NCBI GenBank assembly: GCA_016278515.1
Contig: JADQBR010000029.1
Span: 9,634-72,682 of the forward strand
DNA from: Bacillota bacterium
GTDB taxonomy: Bacteria; Bacillota; JADQBR01
Direction of reading: 5' to 3'
DNA: 63,049 nt
Part shown: positions 34,007 through 53,206 of the stretch, one piece after another
Layout of the letters: every line of letters begins with the position of its first letter
Position numbering within the stretch: the first letter of the stretch is position 1
The notes under the pieces: generated by a model
What the model was told of the DNA's origin: nothing
What the model saw: only the letters and a program-made list of their open reading frames with translations
The model's database searches: none
Made by a program: the position numbers and the translations under genes

Positions 34007-34218
34007 GGAGGTATAAGGGCGACTAAGCCAACAAGTTGGCAAGTCTTCTTTACCTGCGGTGGACTTTTCGAACAACCTACAATAGTAATACTTCTAAAAG
34101 ATAATCATATATTTGGAAGGGAGGTTCTACTGTGTACAGGGAGTCATAAATAGGCACGACATCGTTTCAAATCCCCTATGGCAGGTTCTCGATGCTAATT
34201 TTGAGAGGGAGGACAATT
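34007..34218. other. Leader region of the acoR-like gene
   Basis: About 210 bases with no gene. Beyond the nucleotidyltransferase relic it contains GGAAGGGAGG (34116-34125) without a usable frame behind it. No sigma-54 consensus was seen here, so the regulator is probably expressed from a housekeeping promoter. Confidence 0.35.
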
Positions 34219-36192
34219 ATGTCTAGTTTAGTATACCACATGGGTAAAGCAAATATGATTAAGCAGGCTTGGAGTAATTTTGTGCTTGCGGGGAAAGTTC
34301 AAGAAGGCCATGTACGGAAAATAATCTTTGAGTCATGGAAGCGATGTAAAAATATGGGAGTAACTCATCTTAACGGTATCTGTTACGATGTTTTGCCCGG
34401 TGAAGAATTACAAGAGCTTCTTTTAGAAAAACGACAACTATTGGATATTGCAAGACCTATTATGGAGACACTGTTTAGATGTGTACAGGGTTCCGGATTT
34501 ATTGTAGTATTGATAACTAACAACGGTCGTCTTATTGAGTCCATCGGTGACCCGGATATTTTGGAAATGGCCAAAACTTTAAATTTTGTTCCAGGAGCCA
34601 ATTGGTCAGAAGCATCTGTGGGCACCAACGCTATTGGCACTTCTTTGGCAACAGGTAATCCTCTTCAGGTTTCGGGCGCTGAGCACTATTGTAACAAACA
34701 TCATGCATGGACATGTTCCGGTGCACCTATCCGTGATCCCTCGGGCGAAATAATTGGCTGTCTAAATATGTCCGGACCTAAAGATCGAGTTCATTCTCAT
34801 ACATTAGGAATGATTGTGGCTGCGGTTCGAGCGATAGAAAATCAAATCCGTAAAGAAGAAGCTCAGGAAAGATTAGCGGCAGCCCACAAACATTTAACAA
34901 CAGTAGTAGGTTCTATCTCTGAAGGCTTGTTATCGGTTGAAAATAAAGGTCGTATTACCCATGTTAATTCAGCAGCGGCAAAGATAATCGGCACTCTTCC
35001 CAGTGAACTAATCGGCAAAAATATTTTCGATACTTTTGGACGGAGTTGTCATGTGAAAGAAGTACTGGAGACGGGAGTTGGTTGTCTGGAGGAAGAGTTG
35101 GTACTGGATTCTTTAAAGGGTAGGCTGCACTGCACCTTTAGTGCTACACCCATCATAGATGAAGCTAATCACACGGTTGGAGCAGTTATAACGCTCAGGG
35201 AAATCAAGAAAGTTCACAAAATTGTGAATAAAATGGCTGGGGCTAGAGCGCGGTTGCGTTTTAAAGACGTAATTGGTGAGAGCTCGCAAATGATGGAAGT
35301 TATTAAGAAGGCGAAATTGGCTGCTGGAAGTCCTTCTACAGTTTTGCTCATGGGAGAAAGCGGAACTGGGAAGGAAATTTTTGCCCAGGCCATTCATAAT
35401 GGAAGTCCGCGGAGAGAGGGACCTTTTATCGGTGTAAATTGTGCTGCTATGCCCCGGGAATTGATACAAAGCGAATTGTTCGGTTATAGCGAAGGAGCGT
35501 TTACCGGAGCAAGGCGTAGTGGACAACCCGGCAAATTTGAATTGGCCAGCGGAGGGACCCTTTTTTTGGATGAGATAGGGGATATGCCCTTGGATATGCA
35601 GGTGAATCTTCTCCGGGTCTTACAAGAAAAAAGTGTTATTAGAGTTGGAGGTAATAAGGTTATTCCGGTAGATGTTAGAATTATCGCGGCGACCAACAAG
35701 AATCTTTCCATAGAGGCCAAAAGAGGCAATTTTCGTCAAGATTTGTTTTTTAGGCTCAACGTATTCCCGATAATGATTCCGCCGCTTCGCCAAAGAGTAG
35801 ATGATATAAAATTGCTTACCAATTATTTTATCCATAAATTATCAATAAAATTGGGTAAGGAAATAGTACAAGTTCAGCCAAAAATTTATGAAATTCTTGA
35901 AAGTTATCATTGGCCGGGTAATGTTCGGGAATTGGAGAACATCCTTGAACATGCTATCAATTTAGGTGAGGGAGACACCCTGTTGATAAAGCACTTACCT
36001 GACTATTTTCGGTCAACTCCAGCTGTTGGGGTTGGTAACGGTGAGGTTGTACCTTTGGTGGAATGGGAGCGAAGGGCTATCCAACAAGCCCTGGAAAAGC
36101 TAGACGGGAATGTTTCAAGAACTGCCGAGGCCTTAGGAATAGGACGTAATACTTTATATGATAAATTAAAAAAGTACGGAATCAAAAAATAA
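34219..36192 (+). CDS. acoR: AcoR-type sigma-54 activator of acetoin catabolism
   Basis: A 657-residue activator: a GAF sensor (about 60-210) with EASVGTNAIGTSLA and the HHAWTCSGAPI motif found in AcoR-like proteins, PAS (about 225-320), the AAA+ domain with GESGTGKE, GAFTGA, HWPGNVRELEN, and a Fis-type HTH (SRTAEALGIGRNTLYDKLKK). The start is ATG 34219, six bases after GAGGGAGGA; a more upstream ATG (34192) lacks a site. It lies 2 kb upstream of the aco operon, which has a -24/-12 promoter. Activation in the presence of acetoin is the known role of the family. Confidence 0.85.
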   Translation: MSSLVYHMGKANMIKQAWSNFVLAGKVQEGHVRKIIFESWKRCKNMGVTHLNGICYDVLPGEELQELLLEKRQLLDIARPIMETLFRCVQGSGFIVVLITNNGRLIESIGDPDILEMAKTLNFVPGANWSEASVGTNAIGTSLATGNPLQVSGAEHYCNKHHAWTCSGAPIRDPSGEIIGCLNMSGPKDRVHSHTLGMIVAAVRAIENQIRKEEAQERLAAAHKHLTTVVGSISEGLLSVENKGRITHVNSAAAKIIGTLPSELIGKNIFDTFGRSCHVKEVLETGVGCLEEELVLDSLKGRLHCTFSATPIIDEANHTVGAVITLREIKKVHKIVNKMAGARARLRFKDVIGESSQMMEVIKKAKLAAGSPSTVLLMGESGTGKEIFAQAIHNGSPRREGPFIGVNCAAMPRELIQSELFGYSEGAFTGARRSGQPGKFELASGGTLFLDEIGDMPLDMQVNLLRVLQEKSVIRVGGNKVIPVDVRIIAATNKNLSIEAKRGNFRQDLFFRLNVFPIMIPPLRQRVDDIKLLTNYFIHKLSIKLGKEIVQVQPKIYEILESYHWPGNVRELENILEHAINLGEGDTLLIKHLPDYFRSTPAVGVGNGEVVPLVEWERRAIQQALEKLDGNVSRTAEALGIGRNTLYDKLKKYGIKK

Positions 36193-38133: not shown

Positions 38134-38150
38134 TTGGCATTGAAGTTGCA
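38134..38150 (+). promoter_or_regulatory. Sigma-54 (-24/-12) promoter of the aco operon
   Basis: TTGGCAT (38134-38140), five bases, TTGCA (38146-38150), close to TGGCAC-N5-TTGCA. It lies 40 bases before the first gene of the operon. Confidence 0.8.
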
Positions 38151-38189
38151 TTTTAATATTATTAACGAGTTTATTTGGGAGGTGAAATA

Positions 38190-38555
38190 GTGACTTTAAA
38201 ACGTTACATAATCGAGTTGGGAACCGGCGCAGATCTGCATGGACAGGATGTTACCAAGGCGGCCCAAAAAGCAGTAAAGGATGCAATCTCACGGAGTTGT
38301 TTATGCGGCGTTACAGAGATAATGGGTCTGCAAGACCTTAATAAAATGTTTGTCCAGGTAACTATAGCCGCACCTTATCCGGATAAAGTTGGCCATAATG
38401 AAGTTTTAGCCCAGGTTCCCTTTGGCAAAAAAACAATTGATGTTACGAAAGGAGGAATGGAAGTAGCGGGGATGTTCGTACCCCAGCTGGGCGATGCCAA
38501 GGATAGCATTGTGGTGGTCAATGCTGCAGTGGAAGTAAGTATTGAGGTAGATTGA
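38190..38555 (+). CDS. Lin0512-family protein
   Basis: A 121-residue protein of the Lin0512 family (unknown function), recognised from KRYIIELGTGADLHGQDVTKAA and NEVLAQVPFGKK and its compact length. The start is GTG 38190 after GGGAGGTG. It is the first gene behind the sigma-54 promoter and directly before acoA. Family members are often in acetoin or related operons in Firmicutes as I recall. No catalytic motif can be named. Confidence 0.65.
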   Translation: MTLKRYIIELGTGADLHGQDVTKAAQKAVKDAISRSCLCGVTEIMGLQDLNKMFVQVTIAAPYPDKVGHNEVLAQVPFGKKTIDVTKGGMEVAGMFVPQLGDAKDSIVVVNAAVEVSIEVD

Positions 38556-38611
38556 GTTTGGGCTTTCAGGTAGTGATTCTCGAGTTTACTGAAATTTAAG
38601 GAGGGGGAAAA

Positions 38612-39574
38612 ATGACGCTTTCCAAAGAAAAACTGCTGGAACTTTATAAAAAAATGATAACCATCAGATTATTTGAAGAGCACGCCGTGGAACTCTTTGC
38701 TAATGGAGAAATTCCCGGTTTTGTCCACCTGTATATTGGTGAGGAGGCAACAGCCGTAGGGGTTACTGCTATTTTGGGGGACAATGATTATATCGCCAGT
38801 ACCCACCGCGGACACGGTCACCTGATAGCTCGAGGCGGCGATGTGAAGCTGATGTACGCTGAACTTCTTGGCCGTAAAACAGGCTATTGCAAGGGAAAAG
38901 GCGGCTCCATGCATATTGCTGACATGACTTTGGGCTTTTTAGGTGCCAACGGCATAGTCGGAGCCGGGCCGCCTCTAGCAGCAGGCGCAGCATTTGCCAA
39001 TAAGTACAGGAAAGACAATGGAGTGGCGGTATGCTTCTTTGGTGACGGGGCTTCTAACCGGGGTACTCTCCATGAAGCCTTGAACTTGGCATCCATTTGG
39101 AAACTGCCCGCCGTCTTTATCTGTGAAAATAATATGTACGGTATTTCCATGAATCAGGAGTACCACCAAAATATCAAAGATGTTGCGGACCGGGCATCTG
39201 CTTACGGTATTCCCGGTATCAGCGTGGACGGAAATGACCTGTTTGCTGTTTTTGAAGCAGCTGAAGAAGCGGTCAAACGTGCACGCCAGGGAGACGGGCC
39301 TACGCTGATAGAGTGTAAAACCTATCGTTGGCGCGGTCATTTTGAAGGTGATCCTACCGTTTATCGATCTGAGCAAGAAGTTGAGACATGGAAGAAAAAG
39401 GACCCCATTCCCCGTGTTAAAAAACGTCTGTTGGATTTGGGTGTCTTGACCGAACAAGAAGACCAGGCTGTTTGGGATGAAATAAGGAAGGAAATTCAAG
39501 CAGGCATTGACTTTGCCAAATCAAGTCCTCTGCCCGATGAGTCGGAACTCTTGGAAGACGTATATTGCGATTAA
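38612..39574 (+). CDS. acoA: Acetoin dehydrogenase E1 alpha subunit (TPP-dependent)
   Basis: A 320-residue thiamine-diphosphate E1 alpha chain: HRGHGHLIARGGD, KGKGGSMHIAD, and the TPP motif GDGASNRGTLHEALNLASIWKLP ending in ENNMYGIS. With AcoB it cleaves acetoin (or a related 2-oxo compound) and passes the acyl unit to lipoyl-AcoC. The ATG follows AAGGAGGGGG. Assignment to acetoin rather than pyruvate rests on AcoR, AcoX and the butanediol dehydrogenase relic in the same locus. Confidence 0.85.
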   Translation: MTLSKEKLLELYKKMITIRLFEEHAVELFANGEIPGFVHLYIGEEATAVGVTAILGDNDYIASTHRGHGHLIARGGDVKLMYAELLGRKTGYCKGKGGSMHIADMTLGFLGANGIVGAGPPLAAGAAFANKYRKDNGVAVCFFGDGASNRGTLHEALNLASIWKLPAVFICENNMYGISMNQEYHQNIKDVADRASAYGIPGISVDGNDLFAVFEAAEEAVKRARQGDGPTLIECKTYRWRGHFEGDPTVYRSEQEVETWKKKDPIPRVKKRLLDLGVLTEQEDQAVWDEIRKEIQAGIDFAKSSPLPDESELLEDVYCD

Positions 39575-39606
39575 TTTCGGAATAAAAAGAACGGAGGGGT
39601 GAAAAT

Positions 39607-40578
39607 ATGCCGGAAATTACTTTTTTAGAAGCTATTAACAGTGCGTTAAAAGAAGAAATGCGCAAAGATCCCAACGTATTTATATTAGGTGAAGATGTGG
39701 GTATCTTTGGAGGTTGTTTTGGGGTAACCCAAGGGTTGTTGGATGAATTTGGCCCGGAGCGGGTATTAGACACTCCCATTACCGAGACAGCCATCATTGG
39801 TGCTTCAGTGGGAGCTGCCGCGGCCGGTTTAAGGCCTGTACCCGAAATAATGTTTATGGACTTTCTGGGAGTATGTTTGGATGAAGTATTCAACCAAGCC
39901 GCCAAAATGCGCTATATGTTTGGCGGAAAGGCAAAAATCCCTATGACTATTCGTACCGCATGCGGTGCCGGCCTGGGGGCTGCTGCCCAGCATTCCCAAA
40001 GTCTGGAGGCGTGGATCGCCCACATACCGGGGTTAAAGGTAGTGATGCCCTCTACTCCGGCTGACGCCAAGGGGCTGCTGATCAGTTCCATACGCGACGA
40101 CAATCCCGTTGTGTTTATCGAACACAAAATGATGTACGGAATCAGCGGTTCGGTTCCCGAGGGAGAATACTCCATTCCGCTAGGTAAAGCAGACATTAAA
40201 AGGGAAGGTAAAGATGCCACCGTAGTGGCTACCGCCATGATGGTGCATAAGGCTCTGGCTGCTGCGGAAACTCTGGCAGAGGAAGGTATCGAGATTGAAG
40301 TGGTAGATCCCCGGTGCTTGCAGCCGTTAGATAAGGAGACAATCTTGCATTCGGTAGAGAAAACCGGCAGGCTGGTGGTAATACATGAAGCAGTAAAGAT
40401 AGGCGGAGTTGGCGGAGAAATTGCCGCTATGGTGGTAGAAGAAGGATTTGATTATCTGGATGCTCCTATTAAGCGTATTGGCGCTCCTTTTACACCTATT
40501 CCGTTTGCCAGCAATTTAGAAAATGCTTACCTGCCAGGAGAAGAAGATATAGTAGCGGCTGTTAAATCTCTGGTTTAA
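39607..40578 (+). CDS. acoB: Acetoin dehydrogenase E1 beta subunit
   Basis: A 323-residue transketolase-type beta chain: FILGEDVGIFGGCFGVTQGL, RVLDTPITETAIIGASVGAA, RTACGAGLGAAAQHSQSLEA and EVVDPRCLQPLD. It forms the E1 heterotetramer with AcoA. ATG 39607 follows GGAGGGG, 32 bases after acoA. A strong stem-loop separates it from acoX. Confidence 0.87.
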   Translation: MPEITFLEAINSALKEEMRKDPNVFILGEDVGIFGGCFGVTQGLLDEFGPERVLDTPITETAIIGASVGAAAAGLRPVPEIMFMDFLGVCLDEVFNQAAKMRYMFGGKAKIPMTIRTACGAGLGAAAQHSQSLEAWIAHIPGLKVVMPSTPADAKGLLISSIRDDNPVVFIEHKMMYGISGSVPEGEYSIPLGKADIKREGKDATVVATAMMVHKALAAAETLAEEGIEIEVVDPRCLQPLDKETILHSVEKTGRLVVIHEAVKIGGVGGEIAAMVVEEGFDYLDAPIKRIGAPFTPIPFASNLENAYLPGEEDIVAAVKSLV

Positions 40579-40585
40579 AGAGTGT

Positions 40586-40628
40586 AAGGGAAAGTGGGCG
40601 GCCGAAATATGGCCGTCCGTTTCCCCTT
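40586..40628 (+). other. Intercistronic stem-loop between acoB and acoX
   Basis: AAGGGAAAGTGGGCGGCC and GGCCGTCCGTTTCCCCTT can pair over most of their length around GAAATAT. No T run follows, so mRNA stabilisation or partial attenuation is more likely than full termination. Confidence 0.6.
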
Positions 40629-40644
40629 TATAAGGGGGATGGTT

Positions 40645-41640
40645 ATGTCTACAGTAGGAATTATTGCCAATCCGGCGTCGGGAAAAGACATTAGACGGTT
40701 GGTAGCTCATGCCACCGTATTTGACAACATAGAAAAAGTTAATATTGTTAGGCGGATTTTATTGGGACTGGATGCGGTTGGGGTGGGGCAGGTTTTGTTT
40801 ATGCCCGACTATTTTGGTATTGGCCGCCAGGCTTTAGAGGGGCTTACCGGGCGATATAGTTTAAAGACGAAGGTGGACTATCTGGATATGCCCGTAACCT
40901 GGGGGCAGGAGGATTCCCTGGCTGCCGCACGATTAATGGATGACCTTAAGGTTAATTGTATTATTACTCTTGGCGGAGATGGGACCAACCGAATAGTTGC
41001 CAAAGGATGCAGGCAAGTTCCTTTGGTTCCGGTATCCACGGGGACCAACAATGTTTTTCCTGCCATGGTAGAAGGTACTACGGCCGGGCTGGCCGCAGCA
41101 CTAGTGGCAACCGGACAGATCAGTTGGGAAGCCGCCGCTGACAGAATGAAAAGGATCAGCATTGTTCTTAACGGACAAGAAATTGATCTGGCTTTAGTGG
41201 ATGCAGTGGTTTTAAGAGAACAATTTGTAGGATCCCGAGCAATTTGGGATGAAGAGAAAATAATCAAGTTTGTGGCAACCCGTGGGGAAGCCTTCAATAT
41301 AGGCATAGCATCAATCGTTGGTGGATTGTACCCGCTGTCGCCCCAAGACCCCAACGGTATAGTGGTGGAGTTGGGAAAGGGTGAAACCAAGGTTTTGGCG
41401 ACACTGGGACCTGGACTAATTATGCCAATTTCCATATCCGACTATCGAATTTTAAACTTTGACGACAAGGTGATTGTAAAAAAGGAAACCTGTGTTATCG
41501 CCGTCGATGGTGAACGGGAAATAGAGGTGGGCCCCAAGGATACGGTTGTACTTCAACTCAAGGCCGACGGTCCCCTAGTGGTTAATGTTAAAAAGACTTT
41601 AGACATGGCGGCCCGTCAGGGTTTATTCAAATTAACCTAA
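40645..41640 (+). CDS. acoX: ATP-NAD kinase-like protein AcoX
   Basis: A 331-residue protein of the AcoX/NAD kinase-like family: GIIANPASGKD at the N-terminus, the GGDGTNR motif of NAD kinase and diacylglycerol kinase folds, then PVSTGTNNVFP. AcoX is regularly placed with acetoin dehydrogenase genes; its reaction is not firmly established. ATG 40645 stands six bases after AAGGGGG. Confidence 0.82.
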   Translation: MSTVGIIANPASGKDIRRLVAHATVFDNIEKVNIVRRILLGLDAVGVGQVLFMPDYFGIGRQALEGLTGRYSLKTKVDYLDMPVTWGQEDSLAAARLMDDLKVNCIITLGGDGTNRIVAKGCRQVPLVPVSTGTNNVFPAMVEGTTAGLAAALVATGQISWEAAADRMKRISIVLNGQEIDLALVDAVVLREQFVGSRAIWDEEKIIKFVATRGEAFNIGIASIVGGLYPLSPQDPNGIVVELGKGETKVLATLGPGLIMPISISDYRILNFDDKVIVKKETCVIAVDGEREIEVGPKDTVVLQLKADGPLVVNVKKTLDMAARQGLFKLT

Positions 41641-41661
41641 TGTGTAAAGGAGGAAGAAATT

Positions 41662-43242
41662 ATGGCAGTAAAAGTACTCATGCCCAAACTTGGCCTAACA
41701 ATGAAAAAGGGGAAGATTGCCAAGTGGCTCAAAAAGGAAGGAGAAGAGGTAACTAAAGGTGAGGATTTGGTAGAAATAATAACAGAAAAGATTACTAATG
41801 TTATGGAAGCTCCGGCCAATGGTATTTTGTATAAAATTTTAGCTGAAAAAGGAAAAAATGTACCCATTATTGTTCCTATTGCCGTTATCGCCGACTCAGG
41901 AGAGGATGAAAAAGAGATTCAGCCAGTGGTAGAGGAGGCCCAAGCAGAATTAGTCGGAAGTGAAGTGGAGGAGACAAAAAAAGTAGATAAGCAGCCGGTT
42001 CAAAAAGAAGTTCAACCGGTACGGTTAGATAATGAGCGAAAGATATCTCCTAGAGCAGCCCGTTTAGCCGAAGAAAAAGAAATTGATATTGATTACATAG
42101 ACGGCACCGGTCCTAACGGCAGGGTAACCGAAAAGGACGTAAAGAATTATGTAGAAGAATTGGAAAAACAACCTGAAGAAATTCCTTTTGAAGGCATGCG
42201 GGGTATTATAGCTGAACGCATGTCTGAAAGCAGCCGGAACTCCGCCAGAGTAACTATTATGCAGGAAGTGGATTTTACCAATCTCCAGGATCTAAGAGAG
42301 CAACTTAACAACACTTTTCAAGAGCAGGGAAACGACAAGGTATCCTACACCGACCTTCTTGCGGTGGTAGTGGCTAAAGCCCTGAAGGAACATCCAATAA
42401 TGAATTCCCGGGTGTCCGCTGATAAGATAGAAATATTTGATTCCGTAAACTTGGGCATTGCAGTTGCCCTGGATGACGGTTTGATTGTACCGGTTGTTCA
42501 TCAGGCCCATAGGATGTCCTTGATCCATATTTCGGAAAAAATTAAATCAGTAGCCGAAAGAGCTCGTAGCGGCGAATTAGATTCTGAGGAACTACAAGGC
42601 GGCACTTTTACCATAACTAATCTTGGTATGTTTGGCGCGGAAGGCTTTACGCCCATTATCAATCCACCGGAAACCGCAATTTTGGGTATTGGCACCATCG
42701 TGGAAAAACCGGTGTTGAAAGAAGGAACGCTGGAAAGACGGCCCCGTATGACCTTGAGTCTGTCCATTGACCATCGTGCCGTGGACGGTGCACCGGCGGC
42801 CCGGTTTTTAAGCAGGGTTAGGGAACTGTTGGAAAATCCTCATCCCCTATTCCGCATGGAGGAGCCCAATATTAGTCGCCCGTTGGCAGCCGGAGGCGGT
42901 AAAGACCCGCACAAACTGATGCAGGATTTTGTCGGCGGGATAGAATGGCTTAGTGAAGAAGCTCCCGACATGGCAGTAGGTTTTAATTCGTTGATGGCTC
43001 CGGCTTTTGCGGAAGGAGAGCTATCAACAAAGGACAAAGAGTTAATAGCTATAGCTTTGTCGGTCTATATCAAATGCGAATACTGTATTTCCCATCATGT
43101 GCATAATGCTATAGCAGCAGGAGCCGAGGCCGATGAAGTTCTGGAAGCTTCCGGCGTAGCCATAGCTTTTGGCGGCGGACCGGCCATGGCTTATACGGTG
43201 ACACTGGTCAAGGAGTGTATTAAGGCATTTTCCGCTGACTAA
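41662..43242 (+). CDS. acoC: Dihydrolipoamide acetyltransferase E2 fused to an AhpD-like domain
   Basis: A 526-residue fusion. Residues 1-76 are a lipoyl domain (lipoyl Lys43 in ITEKITN); about 125-160 is the E1/E3-binding peripheral domain (ISPRAARLAEE...GPNGRVTEKDV); about 175-405 is the acyltransferase with the catalytic SIDHRAVDG near 370. The last 100 residues form a carboxymuconolactone decarboxylase/AhpD-like domain with the thiol pair C-E-Y-C near 472-475 followed by ISHHVHNAIAAGA. In mycobacteria AhpD takes electrons from a lipoyl E2 to serve peroxiredoxin; here both parts are one chain. No separate E3 gene (lpdA) is in the window although the E3-binding domain is present. Confidence 0.87.
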   Translation: MAVKVLMPKLGLTMKKGKIAKWLKKEGEEVTKGEDLVEIITEKITNVMEAPANGILYKILAEKGKNVPIIVPIAVIADSGEDEKEIQPVVEEAQAELVGSEVEETKKVDKQPVQKEVQPVRLDNERKISPRAARLAEEKEIDIDYIDGTGPNGRVTEKDVKNYVEELEKQPEEIPFEGMRGIIAERMSESSRNSARVTIMQEVDFTNLQDLREQLNNTFQEQGNDKVSYTDLLAVVVAKALKEHPIMNSRVSADKIEIFDSVNLGIAVALDDGLIVPVVHQAHRMSLIHISEKIKSVAERARSGELDSEELQGGTFTITNLGMFGAEGFTPIINPPETAILGIGTIVEKPVLKEGTLERRPRMTLSLSIDHRAVDGAPAARFLSRVRELLENPHPLFRMEEPNISRPLAAGGGKDPHKLMQDFVGGIEWLSEEAPDMAVGFNSLMAPAFAEGELSTKDKELIAIALSVYIKCEYCISHHVHNAIAAGAEADEVLEASGVAIAFGGGPAMAYTVTLVKECIKAFSAD

Positions 43243-43261
43243 ATTTGGGGAGGCATCTATC

Positions 43262-44860
43262 ATGACTGACACTTGGCGGCTGCTGGATACTGGTATTTGC
43301 AGTGCTGCTGAAAATATGGCGCTGGATGATACGATACTGACTGCCCGTGCTGAGAATTATGTGCCCGATACCCTGCGTTTCTTACAGTTTAGTCCCCGGT
43401 GCGTTTTAATTGGCTACCATCAGGCTGTGGATTTGGAAGTCAGAGAGGATTACTGCCGGCAGCAGGGAATTGAGATAAACCGGCGCATTACCGGAGGCGG
43501 TGCACTGTACTGGGATGAGAAACAGTTGGGTTGGGAGATTTTTGCGCAAAAAAACATGATATCGAAATTGAGGAATGTTGAACAGGTCTATTCTGCACTT
43601 AGTCGGGGTTTAATAGAGGGATTGCGGAATCTGGGAATTGGTGCTCAATTTCGGCCCCATAACGATATTGAAGTAAATGGTCGTAAAATTTCCGGCATGG
43701 GCGGCACAGAAAAAGGTAATGCTTTTCTCTTTCAGGGTACTCTGCTGGTGGATTTTGATATAGAGACCATGTTTCACGCTCTCCGCATTCCCGCGGAAAA
43801 GCTCAAGGATAAAGAGATAGCTTCTGCCAGGGAAAGGATTACCTCGGTAGCCCGGGAACTAGGATACGTACCGCCCGTAGATAAGATAAAAGATGCTCTG
43901 GCCGCGGGATTCAGCCGGGCACTTGACATAGATGTACGAGCCGGAGACCTGCTTCCTAAAGAAAAAAACTTCTTTAAATCAGCAGCCAAGAAGTTTACCT
44001 CGCCCCGGTGGTTGTACGGGGTAAAAAAGTCATCATTGCATGGAGAAGAATTGCGCCATATTTACAAAGCACCTGGTGGCATGATCAGAGTTTCCCTGAT
44101 GGTTGACATTGCCGGAGGTTACATCAAATACGCTTTGATTAGCGGTGATTTTTTCGCTTATCCCGGCAGGGCTATATATGATTTAGAAGCGGTGCTGAAA
44201 AATTGCCCTTGTCAAGGCAACCGGTTGGAGCAGGTGGTACAGGAATTTTTTGCTCAGCATCAAGTGGAGATACCTGGAGTTACCTGGCAGGATATCTGTA
44301 CTGCAATACGCGGTGCCCTCACCAGGGCTCAACTGTTGGAAAACGGGTTTTCTGCGCCGGAAGCCAATGCCGTTACCATGGTGAATGGCGGTGCTATCCA
44401 AGCTGCTGAGGGAATTCCCCTGCTTTTGCCTTATTGCGCCAAGCTGACTTCCTGTAGTTGGCGCAAGCAGGATGGATGCGCTGAATGCGGCAAATGTACC
44501 GTGGGCAAGGCATACCAACTGGCCCAAGATGCGGGTATGATACCCATCAGCATAAACAGTTTTGAACACCTGAAGGCGGTTTTAAGCCGGTACAAGGAAC
44601 AAGGGCGGCCAGGTTTTGTCGGGTGCTGCTGTGAGCCGTTTTATGCAAAGCACCAACAGGATTTTTTGGAAATTGGACTGCCGGGACTGCTGATAGATAT
44701 AGATAACAAAACCTGTTACGAACTGGGACAGTTAAATGAAGCTAAGGAAGGTAAATTCGAACGCCAGACCGATTTAAAAGTTCCTCTGCTAATAAAGATG
44801 ATAAGTAAGTTAGCTAATCCACCTGCAGGGAATTTAAGTACCATGACGGCGGTCAAATGA
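43262..44860 (+). CDS. Lipoate-protein ligase fused to a DUF116-like cysteine-rich domain
   Basis: A 532-residue protein. Residues 1-250 are an LplA/BPL-type ligase (NRRITGGGALYWDEKQ, HNDIEVNGRKISGMGG with catalytic Lys), continued by an accessory lipoate-ligase domain to about 345. The C-terminal about 150 residues carry Cys motifs C-x5-C...GCAECGKC and later VGCCCEP, a pattern I attribute to DUF116. The linked Cys residues suggest a metal or Fe-S site. This may tie ligation to a redox or radical step, or deliver sulfur; this is inference. ATG 43262 follows GGGGAGG. The gene lies between acoC and lipB in the same direction. Confidence 0.75.
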   Translation: MTDTWRLLDTGICSAAENMALDDTILTARAENYVPDTLRFLQFSPRCVLIGYHQAVDLEVREDYCRQQGIEINRRITGGGALYWDEKQLGWEIFAQKNMISKLRNVEQVYSALSRGLIEGLRNLGIGAQFRPHNDIEVNGRKISGMGGTEKGNAFLFQGTLLVDFDIETMFHALRIPAEKLKDKEIASARERITSVARELGYVPPVDKIKDALAAGFSRALDIDVRAGDLLPKEKNFFKSAAKKFTSPRWLYGVKKSSLHGEELRHIYKAPGGMIRVSLMVDIAGGYIKYALISGDFFAYPGRAIYDLEAVLKNCPCQGNRLEQVVQEFFAQHQVEIPGVTWQDICTAIRGALTRAQLLENGFSAPEANAVTMVNGGAIQAAEGIPLLLPYCAKLTSCSWRKQDGCAECGKCTVGKAYQLAQDAGMIPISINSFEHLKAVLSRYKEQGRPGFVGCCCEPFYAKHQQDFLEIGLPGLLIDIDNKTCYELGQLNEAKEGKFERQTDLKVPLLIKMISKLANPPAGNLSTMTAVK

Positions 44861-44888
44861 TTACGCTGGGGGGAAAGAGAGGAACGCC

Positions 44889-45587
44889 ATGACTGCGCAG
44901 GGCTATTTGCTTGATCTTGGTTTTACCGATTACACGGAGGCCTATATGATCCAAAAAACACTGCAGCGAATGCGGATAGCAGGGGTTATCCGGGATACCC
45001 TTATCCTGGTGGAACACCCTCCGGTTCTCACCATTGGGCGAAACGGCGGACGTGAAAATATCCTGGCCGCTGAAGAAATGCTGGAAAGGCAGGGTATTTC
45101 CATTTGTGAGGTGGAACGTGGTGGTGATATTACTTACCATGGTCCGGGGCAGTTGGTGGGGTACCCAATTGTTGATTTAAATATGAGGGGCAGGGATCTG
45201 CATCTCTTCGTACGCTGCTTAGAGGAAGTGGTTATTAGCACCCTTGGCTGTTACGATATTACAGCGAATCGAAAAGACGGCTATCCCGGCATATGGGTTG
45301 GCAGCCGGAAGATTGCCGCTCTGGGGGTAGCAGTAAAAAAGTGGGTCACCATGCACGGGTTTTCTCTTAACATAGCCTGCAGTCTGGACCATTTCCAGCT
45401 GATTGTGCCCTGTGGTATTTCAGGTTACGGCGTCACTTCAATGGCGGAGGTTACCTGCCGGGAACAAGATTTTGAAGCTGTATCCCGGACGGTTCGCGAT
45501 AAATTTGCAGACATTTTTCAAGTGGAGTTGGCACCGGTTTTCTTGGATGAACTCTACCAACGAAAGACACCAACCACTAATAACTAA
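44889..45587 (+). CDS. lipB: Octanoyl-[carrier protein] transferase
   Basis: A 232-residue octanoyltransferase: VERGGDITYHGPGQLVGYPI, and GIWVGSRKIAALGVAVKKWV with the catalytic Lys, plus a PCGISGYGVTSM end including the catalytic Cys. It transfers octanoate from acyl carrier protein to lipoyl domains for LipA to sulfurate. The start is ATG 44889 after AGAGAGGAACGCC. It sits 28 bases after the ligase gene and 17 before lipA. Confidence 0.9.
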   Translation: MTAQGYLLDLGFTDYTEAYMIQKTLQRMRIAGVIRDTLILVEHPPVLTIGRNGGRENILAAEEMLERQGISICEVERGGDITYHGPGQLVGYPIVDLNMRGRDLHLFVRCLEEVVISTLGCYDITANRKDGYPGIWVGSRKIAALGVAVKKWVTMHGFSLNIACSLDHFQLIVPCGISGYGVTSMAEVTCREQDFEAVSRTVRDKFADIFQVELAPVFLDELYQRKTPTTNN

Positions 45588-45604
45588 TTTGGGGCTGAAA
45601 GAGG

Positions 45605-46519
45605 ATGGATAAGGAAAGGTTTTTAACCGGAAAGAAAAACTGCAGGGAGCAAGACCCCGGGGACAGACCTCCTTGGTTAAAAGTGCCTGTTCCTGAAGCA
45701 GATGCTTTAGCTTCCATGGAAGAACTGTTACGTAGAACCGGGTTATACACCGTCTGCCAAGGGGCGTTATGCCCCAATATGGGGGAATGTTTCGGTAAGG
45801 GAACCGCCACTTTTATGATTTTGGGTGACACATGCACACGAAACTGCCGTTTTTGTTCCGTAATAAAGGGAAAGCCGGAGTCACCCAAAATGGATGAGCC
45901 AGGCAAACTGGCCGAAGCAGTACTGCATTTGGGCTTAAAACACGTGGTAATAACTTCGGTGACCCGAGATGACTTAGAAGACGGAGGAGCCAGTCATTTT
46001 GCAGATACTGTTTTCGCTGTACACGGACTCTCTCCCGAGAGTACGGTGGAAGTACTTATCCCTGATTTTCAGGGGTGTGCTGGAGCGTTGGAGACGGTAA
46101 GTGAGTCCGGACCGGAAATTATCGGGCATAATGTAGAGACTGTACCCAGATTGTATTCCCGGGTACGTCCCCGGGCTAATTACCGGCGTTCGTTGGCGGT
46201 GTTGGCTCAGGTCAAGAACATTAATCCCCATATCAGGACAAAATCTGGGATAATGCTGGGGCTGGGAGAGACGGAAACGGAAGTAATAGATGTATTGAAA
46301 GACCTGCGTAATGCGGGGTGTGACATCGTTACTTTGGGGCAGTATCTGCAGCCAACGGGAGACCAACTCTCGGTATACCGGTATATTTCACCCGAGGCCT
46401 TCAGGGTATTTGGCAGAATTGCCAGGGAGTTGGGATTCTCCCATGTGGTATCTTTACCTTTAGCAAGAAGCTCATACCATGCTGAAGAAGCGGTCAAAAT
46501 TAGCTGCGGGAGGTGTTGA
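45605..46519 (+). CDS. lipA: Lipoyl synthase (radical SAM)
   Basis: A 304-residue canonical LipA: the auxiliary-cluster motif CQGALCPNMGEC (CX4CX5C), the radical SAM motif CTRNCRFC (CX3CX2C), and the C-terminal RSSYHAEEA with the Ser ligand. It inserts two sulfurs into octanoyl chains. It is downstream of lipB; a classical endogenous LipB-LipA pathway is therefore complete. Confidence 0.92.
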   Translation: MDKERFLTGKKNCREQDPGDRPPWLKVPVPEADALASMEELLRRTGLYTVCQGALCPNMGECFGKGTATFMILGDTCTRNCRFCSVIKGKPESPKMDEPGKLAEAVLHLGLKHVVITSVTRDDLEDGGASHFADTVFAVHGLSPESTVEVLIPDFQGCAGALETVSESGPEIIGHNVETVPRLYSRVRPRANYRRSLAVLAQVKNINPHIRTKSGIMLGLGETETEVIDVLKDLRNAGCDIVTLGQYLQPTGDQLSVYRYISPEAFRVFGRIARELGFSHVVSLPLARSSYHAEEAVKISCGRC

Positions 46520-46524
46520 AAAAG

Positions 46525-46962
46525 ATGCCAGTTATTGAAGGGTATGAAATGCCCGATGAACTTTATTATACCGAGGACCATGCCTGGTTAAAAGTAGAGG
46601 AAGACAATAAAGTAAGGATTGGATTAAGCGATTTTGCACAAAAATTAGCAGGGGAAATTTCCTTTGTCAAGGTGCCTAAAGTGGGAAAAAAAGCCGTCCC
46701 CGGTAAATTGTTGTTTTCCTTGCAGTCGGGAAAATGGGCCGGTAAAGTGGTGGTTCCCGTAGCTGGGACAATAGTAGAAGCCAACAAAGATTTACTATAT
46801 GAGCCCCAGTTAATCAACGAGAACTGCTACGGGACAGGATGGGTGGCAGTAATAAAAGCCGCCGGTCTTGCTGAAGATTTGGCTGGACTGAAGACAGGAG
46901 AGGCAGCTCACCGGTGGCTGCGGCAAGAAGCGGTCCGGTTAGAGTCAGAGCAGAATAACTAG
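46525..46962 (+). CDS. GcvH-like lipoyl carrier protein 1 (LbpA-type)
   Basis: A 145-residue H-protein fold: LYYTEDHAWLKVEED at the N-terminus, GLSDFAQKLAGEISFVKVP, and the lipoyl-lysine hairpin LQSGKWAGKVVVPVAGTI with Lys70 in QSGKW rather than the ESVKA of glycine-cleavage H proteins. ATG 46525 is chosen; GGGAGGTG stands upstream and overlaps the lipA stop. No P- or T-protein genes are near, so it is not a normal glycine-cleavage component; lipoate-binding proteins of this type work with Hdr-like complexes in sulfur oxidisers. The next two genes encode a GlcD- and an HdrD/GlcF-like pair. Confidence 0.8.
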   Translation: MPVIEGYEMPDELYYTEDHAWLKVEEDNKVRIGLSDFAQKLAGEISFVKVPKVGKKAVPGKLLFSLQSGKWAGKVVVPVAGTIVEANKDLLYEPQLINENCYGTGWVAVIKAAGLAEDLAGLKTGEAAHRWLRQEAVRLESEQNN

Positions 46963-46986
46963 CACTGTAGGAAGGGGAGGACAGCC

Positions 46987-48447
46987 TTGCTGGACCAGAT
47001 AAAGCAGGATTTTGGGCCGCGGTATACCGAGTCCTATTTTGAAAGACAGTTTTATACCAGGGATTTAGCTTATATTCCTAATTTCTTAGTTTCACTGGTG
47101 GCTAAGCCGCTGCCGGAAATGGTAGTAAGGCCGGTTAATGCTGAAGAAGTAAGCCGTATTGTTACTTTTGCATCGAAAAATAAGACGGCGGTAACACCCA
47201 GAGCAGGCGGTTCTACTGCAGTGGGTGGCTGTGTGCCCGCAAATGGCGGTGTTGTAATTGATTTAAACGGTTTAAAAGGGGTTGTAGAGCTTAACCTGGA
47301 CCAGGAAAAAGTAACAGTGCTGCCGGCAACTACCTGGGCGGAGCTGGACAGTTACCTGCGCCAACAAGGTTACTGTGTCTGCTCATATCCGTCAAGCATT
47401 AATGCCGCTACCGTTGGCGGCTGGCTGTCCGGCGGTGGATACGGCATGGGCAGTATCCGGTTTGGTCCTATGGTAGAGCAGGTTAGCTCCCTGGAAGTGG
47501 TTCTTCCTTCGGGAGAAATAAAGCGTCTTAACCGGACAACAGACCCTCCCTTGCAGTGGTTTGCTGGCAGTGAAGGTACCTTAGGCATTATTACTCAGGT
47601 GGAAATGAAAATAAGGCCTATACCGGAAAGCATGGGTCACTACCTGATTGCCGCGGAAAATTCTAAAGCCCTGCTGCAGGCAGCACGGGAATGTGTCAGT
47701 GAGCTGCCGGATATTATTCATAACATGCACTTTAACAGCAAGCTACTTAATGATTCTTTAAAAAGAAAAGGATTAACAGAAGAAAAACTGGGAGATTATC
47801 ACAGCCTAGCCATTGATTTGGAAGAAAAAAATTCCTCTGGGCTGGACGAAACGGAAGATTTTCTGCAAAAGATCGTGAGTAAATACGGCCTTGCTTTCAT
47901 GGACCAAGAAATTGCCATGGAAGAGTGGGAGACGAGATTCCAGTCTCTAAAGATTATGCGGGTTTATCCTTGCCTGTTGGGTGCTGAAGTACTGCTGCCG
48001 GTTGCTTCTTTTCATCGTTACGTGGAACAGGTAGAGGCATTGGGGCGCCGGGCCGGGGTAAAGATGCTTACCTACGGTCACGTAGTGTCCCGAGAGGGGG
48101 CTGTGGTCATGACCCTGTATCCTTCCGACGAGAGGCAGACATGGCGGTACCTTTGTGACACCAGTTTAATGAGGGAAATTTATAGTATTGGCCGGAGGCT
48201 GGATGCAATACCATACTTGACCGGTTTTTGGAACACTCCCTACGTAAAAGATATTCACTCCCGGAAAAAACTGCGGGAGTTAAAGAGACGCAAGAACTTA
48301 TTGGATCCCGGTGACATTATGAATTCCGGAAAAGTTTACCGGCCGCCGCTGCTGCTGCAGCCAAATCTATATCATTTAGGCATGAAAACATTGGGGCTGG
48401 TGCGGCGAATTTGGCCAAAGGGGGTAGAGAGCCATGACCGGCAGTAA
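46987..48447 (+). CDS. FAD-linked 2-hydroxyacid oxidoreductase (GlcD-like)
   Basis: A 486-residue flavoprotein of the VAO/FAD-linked oxidase family: FAD-binding domain with AGGSTAVGGCVPANGGVVIDL and GWLSGGGYGMGSIRFG, and a C-terminal FAD_oxidase_C-like domain (RRKNLLDPGDIMNSGKVY). Glycolate, D-lactate or similar 2-hydroxyacids are usual substrates, the true one is unknown. TTG 46987 follows GGGGAGG. Its end overlaps the Fe-S partner gene by 14 bases, so the pair is translationally coupled as in glcDF or D-lactate dehydrogenase operons. Confidence 0.82.
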   Translation: MLDQIKQDFGPRYTESYFERQFYTRDLAYIPNFLVSLVAKPLPEMVVRPVNAEEVSRIVTFASKNKTAVTPRAGGSTAVGGCVPANGGVVIDLNGLKGVVELNLDQEKVTVLPATTWAELDSYLRQQGYCVCSYPSSINAATVGGWLSGGGYGMGSIRFGPMVEQVSSLEVVLPSGEIKRLNRTTDPPLQWFAGSEGTLGIITQVEMKIRPIPESMGHYLIAAENSKALLQAARECVSELPDIIHNMHFNSKLLNDSLKRKGLTEEKLGDYHSLAIDLEEKNSSGLDETEDFLQKIVSKYGLAFMDQEIAMEEWETRFQSLKIMRVYPCLLGAEVLLPVASFHRYVEQVEALGRRAGVKMLTYGHVVSREGAVVMTLYPSDERQTWRYLCDTSLMREIYSIGRRLDAIPYLTGFWNTPYVKDIHSRKKLRELKRRKNLLDPGDIMNSGKVYRPPLLLQPNLYHLGMKTLGLVRRIWPKGVESHDRQ

Positions 48448-49609
48448 GCAGGCGTTTCGCGGCTTGGCGGAAGAAGCAAGAATCTGTGCCGGCTGCGGTT
48501 CCTGCCGTTCCGTTTGTCCCGTCTATGCCGAGATAGGCTGGGAATCCGCAGCGCCCCGCGGTAAGATAACACTGGGCAAAAAGATATTTGCCGGCGGTAA
48601 GGAGGACTTTCTTTCCGAGCCCTATATCAATCGGGTTTTTCAGTGCACCCTATGCGCCCGGTGTGCTGAAGTTTGCCCGGCCCGGATAGATACACGGGAG
48701 CTGTGGCAAAAAATGCGGCAAGCCATAACGGCCCGGGGCAGAGCACCGGCAGTGTTTGAACAAATGGCGAAAAACATAGAAAGCAACAAAAACATCTCCG
48801 CCAACACCAATGACGGTCGTTTGGATTGGGCAGATGACCTGGATGACCCTGACTGTATAGAAGCGTTAGAATCCAATGCAGTGGGCTATTTTGTCGGCTG
48901 CGTAGCATCTTTTTATCCCATGGTGGCGGAAATTCCCTTGAGTTTCGTCAGTATTATGGAGAAAAATGGTATCAAGGTCACGGTGCTGGGAGAAAAGGAA
49001 TGGTGCTGCGGCTTCCCGCTGCTGGGTGCCGGTCGTAACGGTGAAGCTCTGTCCCTTGCGGAACACAATGCAGCAAAAATCAAAGAGCTGGGGATAAAAA
49101 CCCTGGTTACCACCTGTCCCTCCTGTTACCACACCTTTAAGCACCATTATCCAAAGGTCTTAGGTAAGCATCTGGACTTTGAGCTGGTGCATGCAGCCCA
49201 GTATCTCAGCTGGCTCATTCAAGAAGAGCGGATAGATTGGTCGGAATACGAGGAACTCGACCAAGTGGTAACTTATCATGACCCCTGTGATTTAGGGCGC
49301 AACAGCGGAATTTATGATGCCCCCAGGAACATTTTAGAGAATATTCCCGGAGTAACCTTAGTAGAAATGGAGCACAACCGGGAAAATGCTCTCTGCTGCG
49401 GCGGGGGAGGAAATTTGCAGGCTGTTGATGCCAGTTTGACTGCCGCTATTGCAGAGAGGCGTATAGAAGAAGCCCTTAATACCGGGGCTACAATACTGAT
49501 CAGTGCCTGCCAGCAGTGTGTTCAGGTTCTCACTGACGCTGCCCGGCGTAAAAAGGCCCCCATACAAGTAATGGATATTAACCAATTACTCTGGATGGGA
49601 TGGGAATAG
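48434..49609 (+). CDS. Iron-sulfur CCG-domain oxidoreductase subunit (GlcF/HdrD-like)
   Basis: A 391-residue protein with two N-terminal [4Fe-4S] motifs (CAGCGSCRSVCPVY; CTLCARCAEVCPA) and two CCG domains, each with a full Cys set (GCVASF...CCGFP...CPSC; PCDLGRN...CCGGGGN...CQQC). Complete CCG domains bind the noncubane clusters which reduce heterodisulfides in HdrB/HdrD. It is coupled to the GlcD-like gene and is flanked on both sides by lipoyl carrier genes. Electron transfer between the flavin and a lipoyl disulfide is the hypothesis this layout suggests. Confidence 0.85.
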   Translation: MTGSKQAFRGLAEEARICAGCGSCRSVCPVYAEIGWESAAPRGKITLGKKIFAGGKEDFLSEPYINRVFQCTLCARCAEVCPARIDTRELWQKMRQAITARGRAPAVFEQMAKNIESNKNISANTNDGRLDWADDLDDPDCIEALESNAVGYFVGCVASFYPMVAEIPLSFVSIMEKNGIKVTVLGEKEWCCGFPLLGAGRNGEALSLAEHNAAKIKELGIKTLVTTCPSCYHTFKHHYPKVLGKHLDFELVHAAQYLSWLIQEERIDWSEYEELDQVVTYHDPCDLGRNSGIYDAPRNILENIPGVTLVEMEHNRENALCCGGGGNLQAVDASLTAAIAERRIEEALNTGATILISACQQCVQVLTDAARRKKAPIQVMDINQLLWMGWE

Positions 49610-49636
49610 GTTGACTTAGGATAGGAGTGAACAGAG

Positions 49637-50068
49637 TTGAAATTAGGGGAATGGTCTTTTTGTAAGGACCTATTGTACCATAAAGAGCATCTTTGGCTGG
49701 AGGTTAAAGACTCCATCGCCCGTGTAGGTCTAACCGACTACGCCCAGGATACCAGAGGTGATGTCCTCTATCTGGGATTACCGAAAATCGGCCTTCGAGT
49801 CCAACAGGGAGATACCGTGGCTACCATTGAAACTGGTAAATGGGTAGGCAGACTCATTGCCCCGGTCACAGGTACTATAGTAGGCATTAATAGCCAACTA
49901 TCAAGAAACCCTCAGCTAATAAATCAGGATCCGTACGGTGAAGGTTGGATTTTTCAACTGCGCATTTCGAACCAAACAGAACTATCCTCTCTATTGAAAT
50001 GTGATGAATTTTATCATTGGCTGGAGCACACGTTAGCAAACCAAGTAGATTGTGAATTGGACAGGTGA
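49637..50068 (+). CDS. GcvH-like lipoyl carrier protein 2 (LbpA-type)
   Basis: A 143-residue H-protein fold: LLYHKEHLWLEVKDSIARVG, TDYAQDTRGDVLYLGLP and the lipoyl hairpin IETGKWVGRLIAPVTGTI with Lys68. Like carrier 1 it has GKW-x-G in place of the ESVKA of true GcvH. TTG 49637 stands seven bases after AGGAG. It follows the CCG protein and overlaps the region just before a LipT-like gene, the context described for LbpA with the LipS1/LipS2 pathway. Confidence 0.8.
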   Translation: MKLGEWSFCKDLLYHKEHLWLEVKDSIARVGLTDYAQDTRGDVLYLGLPKIGLRVQQGDTVATIETGKWVGRLIAPVTGTIVGINSQLSRNPQLINQDPYGEGWIFQLRISNQTELSSLLKCDEFYHWLEHTLANQVDCELDR

Positions 50069-50072
50069 TACT

Positions 50073-51155: not shown

Positions 51156-51191
51156 TCTTTAATGATGTAGTAGATAAAGGTGGGAAAATGT

Positions 51192-52250
51192 ATGATAAAA
51201 TGTTCGGAAAGCCCCAAGTTTACCAAGACAAGTTTGGCCGCCGCCATCACTTTAAAACTAAAAAAAGGAAGCTTTTACCGAGAAGCAAGATTAAACTGCT
51301 TAAACCTGCTGCTGAGTTATGATAGCGGCTGTGTTGGGCGCTGTGCCTACTGTGGATTAGCCAACAACAGGGTTATATCTCCCGAGGAAAACACTTTTAT
51401 TCGAGTCAAATGGCCAACCTATGACGTAGACGAGATACTGCAGCGGGCAAAAAGAGATGAAGATAAACTAAAACGAGTGTGTGTGGCCATGGTTACCCAC
51501 CCCCAAGCACTGGCTGACTGTAATGAAATCATTAGTCGTTTTAAACATAATACAAGTTTATTAATTAGTGCCCTGGTGACGCCCACTATGATAAAAAATA
51601 AGAGGCAGATTAAACAATTAAAGGAAAGCGGAGCGGACAGTTTGGGAATAGCTGTGGACACGGCAACCGGGGAACTTTTCGGCAAATTGCGTGGCTCCGG
51701 TGTGGAGGGACCCCACAGTTGGAGACATTATTGGCAGGTGATAAAGGATGCGGTGGCAGTATTCGGGCCCGGTAATGTCAGTGTTCATCTCATAGTGGGC
51801 TTGGGAGAAACAGAAAAGGAAATGGTAGAAACTATTCACAGGGTAAACCGACAAAAGGCAGTGCCGCACCTTTTTGCTTTCTTTCCCGAAAAAGGCAGTG
51901 CTTTAGGTACTCTCAGCCAGCCGCCCATAGGCCAATACCGGCGCATCCAGCTTGCCCGTCACCTGATAGTTAGCAGGTTAATCAGTCCGCAGCAAATGCA
52001 GTTTAACGAGGACGGCAAGATTGTTGATTATGGTACCGACATAAAGTCTGCGGTGGAGACGGGACTGCCCTTTATGACCTCTGGGTGTCCCGATGCACAG
52101 GGTGAGACAGCCTGCAACCGCCCATACGGCAACGAACGTCCCGGAGAACTGCTGTATAACTACCCTTTTAGACCGAATAATGACGATGTCAAGTTAATTA
52201 AAAGTCAGTTATGGCAGGGGTTAAAGGAGGAACAGTATCAATCATGGTGA
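51192..52250 (+). CDS. Radical SAM protein, LipS1/LipS2-type lipoyl synthase subunit (first)
   Basis: A 352-residue radical SAM protein with CVGRCAYC (C47, C51, C54) and a barrel. Additional Cys lie at the N-terminus and near the end (SGCPDAQGETACNRPYG), possible ligands for a second cluster. ATG 51192 is preferred over GTG 51180, which overlaps the AAAGGTGG site. It overlaps the next radical SAM gene by 7 bases. Paired radical SAM proteins behind a LipT-like flavoprotein and an LbpA-like carrier match the alternative lipoyl synthase pair LipS1/LipS2 known from archaea and sulfur oxidisers; which of the two this is I cannot say. Confidence 0.72.
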   Translation: MIKCSESPKFTKTSLAAAITLKLKKGSFYREARLNCLNLLLSYDSGCVGRCAYCGLANNRVISPEENTFIRVKWPTYDVDEILQRAKRDEDKLKRVCVAMVTHPQALADCNEIISRFKHNTSLLISALVTPTMIKNKRQIKQLKESGADSLGIAVDTATGELFGKLRGSGVEGPHSWRHYWQVIKDAVAVFGPGNVSVHLIVGLGETEKEMVETIHRVNRQKAVPHLFAFFPEKGSALGTLSQPPIGQYRRIQLARHLIVSRLISPQQMQFNEDGKIVDYGTDIKSAVETGLPFMTSGCPDAQGETACNRPYGNERPGELLYNYPFRPNNDDVKLIKSQLWQGLKEEQYQSW

Positions 52251-53206
52251 TAAGTGAGACTTACTTTCGGGAAGAATTATCAGCCCTCCTAGACCGCGCC
52301 TGGGAGTTAAGACAGAGAAACTTTTCCCCGGAAATTACCTTTGCCGTCCCCGGGGGAAGAAAATATGATACGGTAGTTTTTACTAACCGCCAAGAACGCT
52401 TTTTAAATGTAAGTATCACAGACAAAACATGTTCCCTACTTTGTGACCACTGCCGCGGGCGCATGCTAGCCGGCATGACGCCGGTAACCGATCCCCGGCA
52501 ATTGCTTGCTTTGGTAGAACGACTGATGGGAAAGGGGGCCCGCGGGCTGCTGATTAGCGGCGGCTGCGACCGGGAAGGCAGTGTCCCTTTGGATAATTTT
52601 ATTCCGGCCATAGCCGATATTACAGCAACGGGATTAAAGGTTATCGTACATACCGGTTTGGTTGCCAGAGATCAAGCAAAAAGATTAAAGGATGCGGGAG
52701 TTGACCAGGTTCTTTTTGATATCATCGGCGATGAAGATACTATAAGACAGGTTTATCACCTGGATAAAGTTCCTGAGGACTATTATCGTTGCTTGGAGAG
52801 TCTTTTAGAAGTAGGACTGGATGTGGCACCCCACATTGTAATAGGGCTGCACTACGGAAAAATCAGAGGAGAACACGCAGTCTTACGGGAAATAGCACAA
52901 ATCGGCGTTGACCGTTTAGTACTTGTAGCACTGCGAAATTTGTCTGGCACACCCATGGCCGGCCTAAGGCCGGTAGATCGGCGGGAAGTAGCGCGTATAG
53001 CAGCCGTAGCCAGATTGATATGCCCTGAAACCTATATATCTTTTGGCTGTGCCAGACCATTTGGAAAGGAAAAAATAGTGCTGGAGCAGCATCTCATTGA
53101 TGCAGGTATAAACGCTCTTGCTTACCCGGAAGAAGAGACATTAACCTATGTCCAAAAACGAGGGCTGGTTTTCAAATTTGAAGAGCAATGCTGCAGCATG
53201 GTCTAG
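52244..53206 (+). CDS. Radical SAM protein, LipS1/LipS2-type lipoyl synthase subunit (second)
   Basis: A 320-residue radical SAM protein with CSLLCDHC (C63, C67, C70), ISGGCDREGSVPL and a C-terminal CARPFGKE, plus EEQCC near the end. It overlaps the first radical SAM gene by 7 bases; AAAGGAGG lies 13 bases upstream of ATG 52244, a slightly long spacing. It closes the lipoate cluster. The pairing with the first is the main evidence for LipS1/LipS2-type sulfur insertion; a biotin-synthase-like function is less likely in this context. Confidence 0.7.
   Translation: MVISETYFREELSALLDRAWELRQRNFSPEITFAVPGGRKYDTVVFTNRQERFLNVSITDKTCSLLCDHCRGRMLAGMTPVTDPRQLLALVERLMGKGARGLLISGGCDREGSVPLDNFIPAIADITATGLKVIVHTGLVARDQAKRLKDAGVDQVLFDIIGDEDTIRQVYHLDKVPEDYYRCLESLLEVGLDVAPHIVIGLHYGKIRGEHAVLREIAQIGVDRLVLVALRNLSGTPMAGLRPVDRREVARIAAVARLICPETYISFGCARPFGKEKIVLEQHLIDAGINALAYPEEETLTYVQKRGLVFKFEEQCCSMV

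Follow-up and report, generated by a model that had tools for sequence, protein, structure and literature searches.

A variant acetoin dehydrogenase E2 subunit with a C-terminal AhpD-like domain, in Bacillota operons lacking the gene for dihydrolipoyl dehydrogenase

Acetoin dehydrogenase systems of the AcoABCL type combine E1 alpha, E1 beta and an E2 carrying lipoyl and E3-binding domains with the dihydrolipoyl dehydrogenase (E3, Lpd) encoded by acoL (lpd). An AcoR-like activator and AcoX, a marker of acetoin dehydrogenase operons, complete the set. E3 is regarded as obligatory in every lipoyl-based dehydrogenase complex. A different use of the lipoyl arm is found in the mycobacterial AhpC-AhpD-SucB-Lpd chain, where an AhpD-family CxxC protein is partnered with a lipoylated E2. 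The sHdr-LbpA system brings together a GcvH-like carrier and dedicated lipoate ligases with Hdr-like Fe-S/flavin proteins (eLife 2018, PMC6067878); in sulfur oxidation, GcvH-like lipoate carriers adjoin Hdr-like proteins, and Lpd has been proposed as the reoxidant in that system (PMC6067878). Finally, lipoyl domains also occur on E3 itself, in the lipoyl-domain-containing dihydrolipoyl dehydrogenases (LD-E3). Here we compare with these systems an E2 protein encoded in a 63,049-nucleotide stretch of a Bacillota genome, referred to below as the window.

The protein is encoded by a single open reading frame of 526 amino acids (41662..43242, plus strand) with homologues elsewhere, and consists of an AcoC-type E2 followed by an AhpD-like (CMD) domain. 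Four Pfam domains, all over their cut-offs, follow each other on the plus strand: a lipoyl domain (aa 4-75, 41671..41886; PF00364 Biotin_lipoyl, E 4e-13), a peripheral subunit (E3/E1)-binding domain (aa 127-161, 42040..42144; PF02817 E3_binding, 1e-12), the acyltransferase catalytic domain (aa 169-396, 42166..42849; PF00198 2-oxoacid_dh, 3e-87) and the CMD domain (aa 435-517, 42964..43212; PF02627 CMD, 4e-18). A Pfam scan recovered the identical set, E3-binding domain included, in all eight fused proteins scanned. The predicted lipoyl lysine K43 (41788-41790, plus strand) lies in a T-E-K motif that is invariant among fused homologues, and the acyltransferase domain carries the motif HRAVDG, whose H371, D375 and G376 (HRxxDG) are unchanged, like K43, across the eight aligned fused homologues. 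With its lipoyl domain and lysine, E3/E1-binding domain, HxxxDG acyltransferase and E1 alpha, E1 beta and AcoX neighbours, the N-terminal part has the features of an AcoC-type E2.

The active-site set of the CMD domain (E460, C472, C475 and H479; 43039..43098, plus strand) is likewise invariant in the eight aligned fused proteins, and C472, C475 and H479 stay so once unfused CMD proteins join the alignment. E460 is the AhpD-type glutamate, twelve residues N-terminal to the first cysteine. The original prediction had recognised an AhpD-type CxxC site here, which is upheld, but had given its spacing as CxxC-x-x-H; histidines occur at +6 and +7 after the first cysteine and the second alone is invariant, so that the conserved form is C-x-x-C-x-x-x-H. 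In AhpD of M. tuberculosis, we take the proton-relay set to be E118, C130, H132, C133 and H137. Four of these five residues (Glu118, Cys130, Cys133 and His137) are kept in the window CMD, whereas His132 is replaced by Tyr474, a residue that is invariant among fused homologues, and the full AhpD set is thus incomplete. TIGR00778 (AhpD core) is over its cut-off for the fusion protein and peroxidase-like families match too. When the CMD part was modelled with AlphaFold (pLDDT 86), Foldseek matched it best to the Legionella AhpD-like protein 5dik (TM 0.80, 34% identity) and also to RclX (7y4r), in agreement with the sequence search; a full-length model was discarded (pLDDT 42). PF02627, TIGR00778 and the match to 5dik together place the domain in the AhpD/CMD family and bear out the fusion and domain identity first proposed. 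Gamma-carboxymuconolactone decarboxylase (PcaC), which has a protocatechuate context and no CxxC, was rejected as an identity for the domain, given its invariant CxxC and aco context.

A sequencing error joining two genes, raised at the outset as a possible cause of the fusion, is excluded by full-length fusions in independent assemblies and in a closed chromosome, that of Desulfotomaculum gibsoniae (G420; 4,855,529 bp, PMC4148979). A contig scan found the fusion at full length, with 50-83% identity, in seven loci, and the full-length protein is conserved in at least 10 genomes beyond that of the window; carriers include Desulfotruncus arcticus, Desulfotomaculum copahuensis, Desulfofundulus thermosubterraneus and Desulfoscipio geothermicus. 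In the class of the latter, an E2 match (E <= 1e-60) is present in 8 of 113 genomes and extends through the CMD domain in every case. Among plasmid records, the best matches listed end at residue 396, upstream of the CMD domain; five records have coverage above 80%. A search of the literature, with most subscription journals outside its scope, found no description of an E2-CMD fusion or of a missing E3. The window protein belongs to a variant of the known acetoin dehydrogenase complex.

Its gene belongs to a cluster that begins with an AcoR-like sigma-54 activator (34192..36192, plus strand; best match to DhaR/PrdR-type sigma-54 regulators), homologues of which sit upstream of related aco operons, and continues with an LplA gene on the minus strand and a Lin0512-family protein (38175-38555). 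Then follow, all on the plus strand, E1 alpha (AcoA; 38612..39574, PDH E1-alpha family over cut-off), E1 beta (AcoB; 39607..40578, E1-beta family over cut-off), the NAD-kinase-like AcoX (40594..41640; PF01513), whose position between E1 beta and E2 is conserved, and the E2-CMD gene. Downstream lie, on the same strand, a lipoate-protein ligase fused to DUF116 (LplA-DUF116; 43262..44860; PF21948, PF01976), a LipB-like octanoyltransferase (44889..45587) and a LipA-like lipoyl synthase (45605..46519), the last two named from sequence and context by homology to the two halves of LipB-LipA fusions. Next come a stand-alone lipoyl carrier, GcvH1 (46513..46962; PF01597, lipoyl-site motif SGKWAGK), a GlcD-like FAD protein (46987..48447; FAD_binding_4, TIGR00387 below cut-off), a GlcF/TfrB-like Fe-S protein with two CCG motifs (48434..49609; PF02754 twice), a second carrier, GcvH2 (49637..50068; PF01597, motif TGKWVGR), a geranylgeranyl-reductase-like flavoprotein and the lipoyl synthase pair LipS2 and LipS1 (51180..53206; NF053743 and NF053742, just below cut-off). 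Positions 36708-53206 thus hold two LplA-type ligases, LipB, LipA and LipS1/LipS2, that is, several lipoate assembly routes together, plus two GcvH-like carriers.

This cluster represents an acetoin dehydrogenase operon that includes a dedicated set of lipoylation genes. Acetoin as the substrate is inferred from AcoX, from AcoR and from neighbouring genes: a butanediol dehydrogenase, found nearby in several relatives as in known AcoABCL systems, adjoins related aco operons together with an SDR protein. The difference from AcoABCL lies in acoL: no lpd gene was found within the window aco cluster, its place being taken by a CMD domain or gene.

Further variation was seen among the accessory genes of related operons. 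One locus (L003 2559-5069, the same as L047) has LplA-DUF116 fused to LipA in a single 836-aa frame, and in the Desulfotomaculia relatives LipB and LipA are fused into proteins of about 520-560 aa, 3' of which a SAM methyltransferase of 230-250 aa closes the aco operon (L004, L048, L049, L089, L090). Lin0512-family proteins recur at aco operons, CMD-bearing or not, and DUF6506 proteins recur near CMD-bearing ones; besides the window, members of these two families occur at L050 (10000-10305), L088 (15995-16294), L090 (3062-3361) and L111 (5580-5906).

The E2 was used as query against 398 genomes of the phylum, and the neighbourhoods were retrieved and annotated; in the sampled aco operons, CMD and E3 proved mutually exclusive. 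None of the 17 CMD-bearing operons has lpd; eleven of these carry the fusion, the window's included, and in six (L050, L051, L058, L059, L111 and L197) an unfused CMD gene lies directly 3' of E2, with no more than about 130 bases between the E2 stop codon and the CMD start. Conversely, CMD is absent from all seven AcoX-containing operons with lpd immediately 3' of E2. CMD occupies the lpd slot of the aco operon. A script tally made before L197 was added counted, among AcoX loci, none with both genes, 14 with CMD only, 7 with lpd only and 7 with neither, and among all E2 loci 0, 16, 19 and 28 in the same order. In a hand-curated AcoX set, from which a contig end and a divergent copy were left out and in which two CMD loci with cut or masked AcoX were counted, the figures are 0, 17, 7 and 5 (Fisher p 0.0005, which is no true probability as the loci are related). 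Operons with neither gene are common, and a missing lpd is therefore not peculiar to CMD-bearing operons. In the E2 tree the fused proteins form a clade and the E2 proteins with an unfused CMD a separate group, which hints at two origins of the E2-CMD link; one common CMD clade is not rejected (AU p 0.098) and an independent double origin is not claimed. Since the operons are related and a single clade is not rejected, the mutual exclusivity may reflect few events.

At the genome level, no Lpd was detected in D. geothermicus (G342, 99% complete) or in D. gibsoniae (G420), in which the best TIGR01350 scores are 145 and 149 bits against a cut-off of 408.8. All candidates of both genomes were scored, and rescoring every one of them ruled out that a canonical Lpd had been overlooked as an unscored candidate; as a control, the model was over cut-off in 11 of 14 named genomes. 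Neither genome has a GcvH match, and in both the fusion is the sole E2 match at E <= 1e-60. Their best matches to the Lpd model are proteins of 562-570 aa with a rhodanese-like C-terminal part, assigned by eye to the CoA-disulfide-reductase (CoADR) type. Far below the cut-off and matching the model in part only, these proteins were rejected as ordinary E3, and they could substitute for E3. Six other CMD genomes were scored for both genes and all have Lpd and GcvH. In four of the six, the window's included, an Lpd gene is no more than about 7 kb from one for GcvH and is thus probably part of the glycine cleavage system. Most simply, Lpd of the CMD group would serve glycine cleavage and be dispensable for aco. 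The window genome has a single Lpd over cut-off, encoded on a different contig close to genes for glycine cleavage. This Lpd, like those that most CMD genomes encode, could serve the aco complex in trans, and the idea that no E3 is available, taken literally, does not hold for this organism.

The reading that we prefer, at about an even chance of being right, is that dihydrolipoyl electrons leave by way of CMD, which would replace E3, and pass to thiol/disulfide (Hdr-like) modules rather than straight to NAD+. It draws on the missing lpd of CMD-bearing aco operons and from the two Lpd-less fusion genomes; the original suggestion of an outlet for dihydrolipoate when no E3 is available gains from this same comparative evidence, and fails only as a literal statement about the window organism. 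In the proposed cycle, E1 would cleave acetoin and acetylate the lipoyl arm, from which E2 would transfer the acetyl group to CoA, leaving a dihydrolipoyl arm that would swing to the tethered CMD and reduce its C472-C475 disulfide. A module with thiol/disulfide oxidoreductase activity, in place of an NAD+-linked E3, would reoxidise the resulting dithiol.

The candidate modules are encoded downstream. At L050 and L058 the unfused CMD is followed by GcvH1, GlcD and GlcF, and at L051 the same genes come after a LipA; at L059 GlcD and GlcF follow a partly masked CMD stretch, and at L197 the series runs up to GlcD, where the contig ends. In the window and these unfused homologues, the reoxidising module is probably the co-encoded set of GcvH, GlcD and GlcF/TfrB-like CCG protein. 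The best NCBIfam match of the window GlcF is TfrB of thiol:fumarate reductase (197 bits, below the cut-off of 385), an enzyme that interconverts dithiols and disulfides. In one genome (L111, 1000-5906), the unfused CMD is followed by DUF6506, GcvH, HdrC, HdrB and an HdrA with a fused MvhD-like domain, and HdrABC would be the reoxidising module. This GcvH-HdrC-HdrB-HdrA arrangement recalls sHdr-LbpA, but the genes that accompany it are those of acetoin dehydrogenase and CMD instead of sulfur oxidation. In such operons CMD may hand its electrons to the lipoyl carrier, and from there onward to the CCG/flavin module. The Desulfotomaculia aco operons keep CMD and have no GcvH/GlcD/GlcF module; a thioredoxin-type or Hdr-type protein from elsewhere in the genome may act as the acceptor there. 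A more tentative extension, which we consider somewhat improbable, is an E3-free complex in which CMD electrons would travel via mobile lipoyl carriers to heterodisulfide-reductase-like modules, coupling acetoin oxidation to quinone, ferredoxin or bifurcating electron transfer instead of directly to NAD+. If CMD does replace E3, the lipoyl arm can be reoxidised by a route other than E3, the predicted fate of acetoin and butanediol electrons changes for sulfate reducers and related Bacillota, and classical dehydrogenase complexes become linked to the lipoate-carrier/Hdr electron transfer of sulfur oxidation.

The wider distribution of this CMD type bears on its function. An alignment search of the 398 genomes gave nine matches above 150 bits, each of them either part of an aco E2 protein or encoded immediately 3' of one, although the search model was built from some of these nine, which favours them. 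The next group starts at 142 bits, and much of it adjoins Lpd proteins (565-658 aa) with N-terminal lipoyl domains, often with LplA. In a CMD tree used only loosely, in which the rows of L046 and L088 are badly truncated and deep nodes are weak, these proteins form a sister clade of the aco CMD (L158-L161, L163, L166-L168), directly upstream of, or one gene from, the lipoyl-domain-Lpd. LplA is frequent at these loci, L167 has an Lpd with two N-terminal lipoyl domains, and L158 has an ArsR-type regulator. The loci recall LD-E3, but there CMD is separate and beside E3, whereas the aco CMD is fused to E2 in an operon that has no E3. Their position beside lipoyl-domain-Lpd fusions and LplA suggests that this CMD type associates with lipoyl domains, be they part of E2 or of E3, and the sister-clade loci possibly form an NADH-driven CMD reductase system.

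These loci also bear on the peroxide defence that was proposed initially, in which the E2 lipoyl arm would reduce CMD, CMD would reduce a peroxiredoxin or peroxide, and an Lpd encoded elsewhere would reoxidise E2. The mycobacterial SucB-AhpD-AhpC chain is a precedent, the Glu, Cys, Cys, His set is intact, AhpD core and peroxidase-like families match, and NADH could drive the related CMDs beside lipoyl-Lpd fusions. However, unlike in mycobacteria, the hosts are anaerobes and the domain forms part of an acetoin-type E2; the neighbours examined, of fused and unfused CMD alike, include no recognisable AhpC or peroxiredoxin; the operon is catabolic, with a sigma-54 activator upstream and CMD in the lpd slot; and the two Lpd-less fusion genomes would be left with no known E3 for normal turnover. 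We consider this adaptor role unlikely. The neighbourhoods of the aco CMD lend it no support, and the sister clade is possibly a better fit. Of the two original options, the outlet function is the better supported, at about even odds of being right.

A slightly less probable account is that CMD acts as an accessory, sensing or buffering redox state so as to regulate E2 or shield the lipoyl arm, while the E3-binding domain recruits Lpd. At least one Lpd is encoded by the window genome and most CMD genomes, and that domain is retained in all fused proteins scanned, but it is also able to bind E1. The account fails in the two genomes with no detected Lpd, D. geothermicus and D. gibsoniae, and leaves unexplained that CMD and lpd never share a sampled aco operon. 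That another flavoprotein (GlcD/GlcF, HdrA or CoADR-type) replaces E3 by acting directly on the E2 dihydrolipoyl arm, with CMD otherwise employed, for example in handling an acetoin-cleavage by-product such as acetaldehyde, would agree with the flavin/Fe-S modules with CCG proteins co-encoded in several operons and with CoADR-rhodanese-like proteins as the nearest Lpd relatives in the Lpd-less genomes, but is improbable given that Desulfotomaculia operons retain CMD in the absence of such modules and that lipoyl chemistry is indicated both by the attachment of CMD to the subunit that bears the lipoyl arm and by the lipoyl-Lpd genes next to the sister clade.

An unusual CMD homologue was found at L176, on the minus strand near 6738 (G071:C1:215076-215390). 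It has an in-frame TGA at the second cysteine of the CxxC motif (CQP-TGA-IANH) and is a candidate selenoprotein. Similar CMD matches with one TGA occur in several further genomes.
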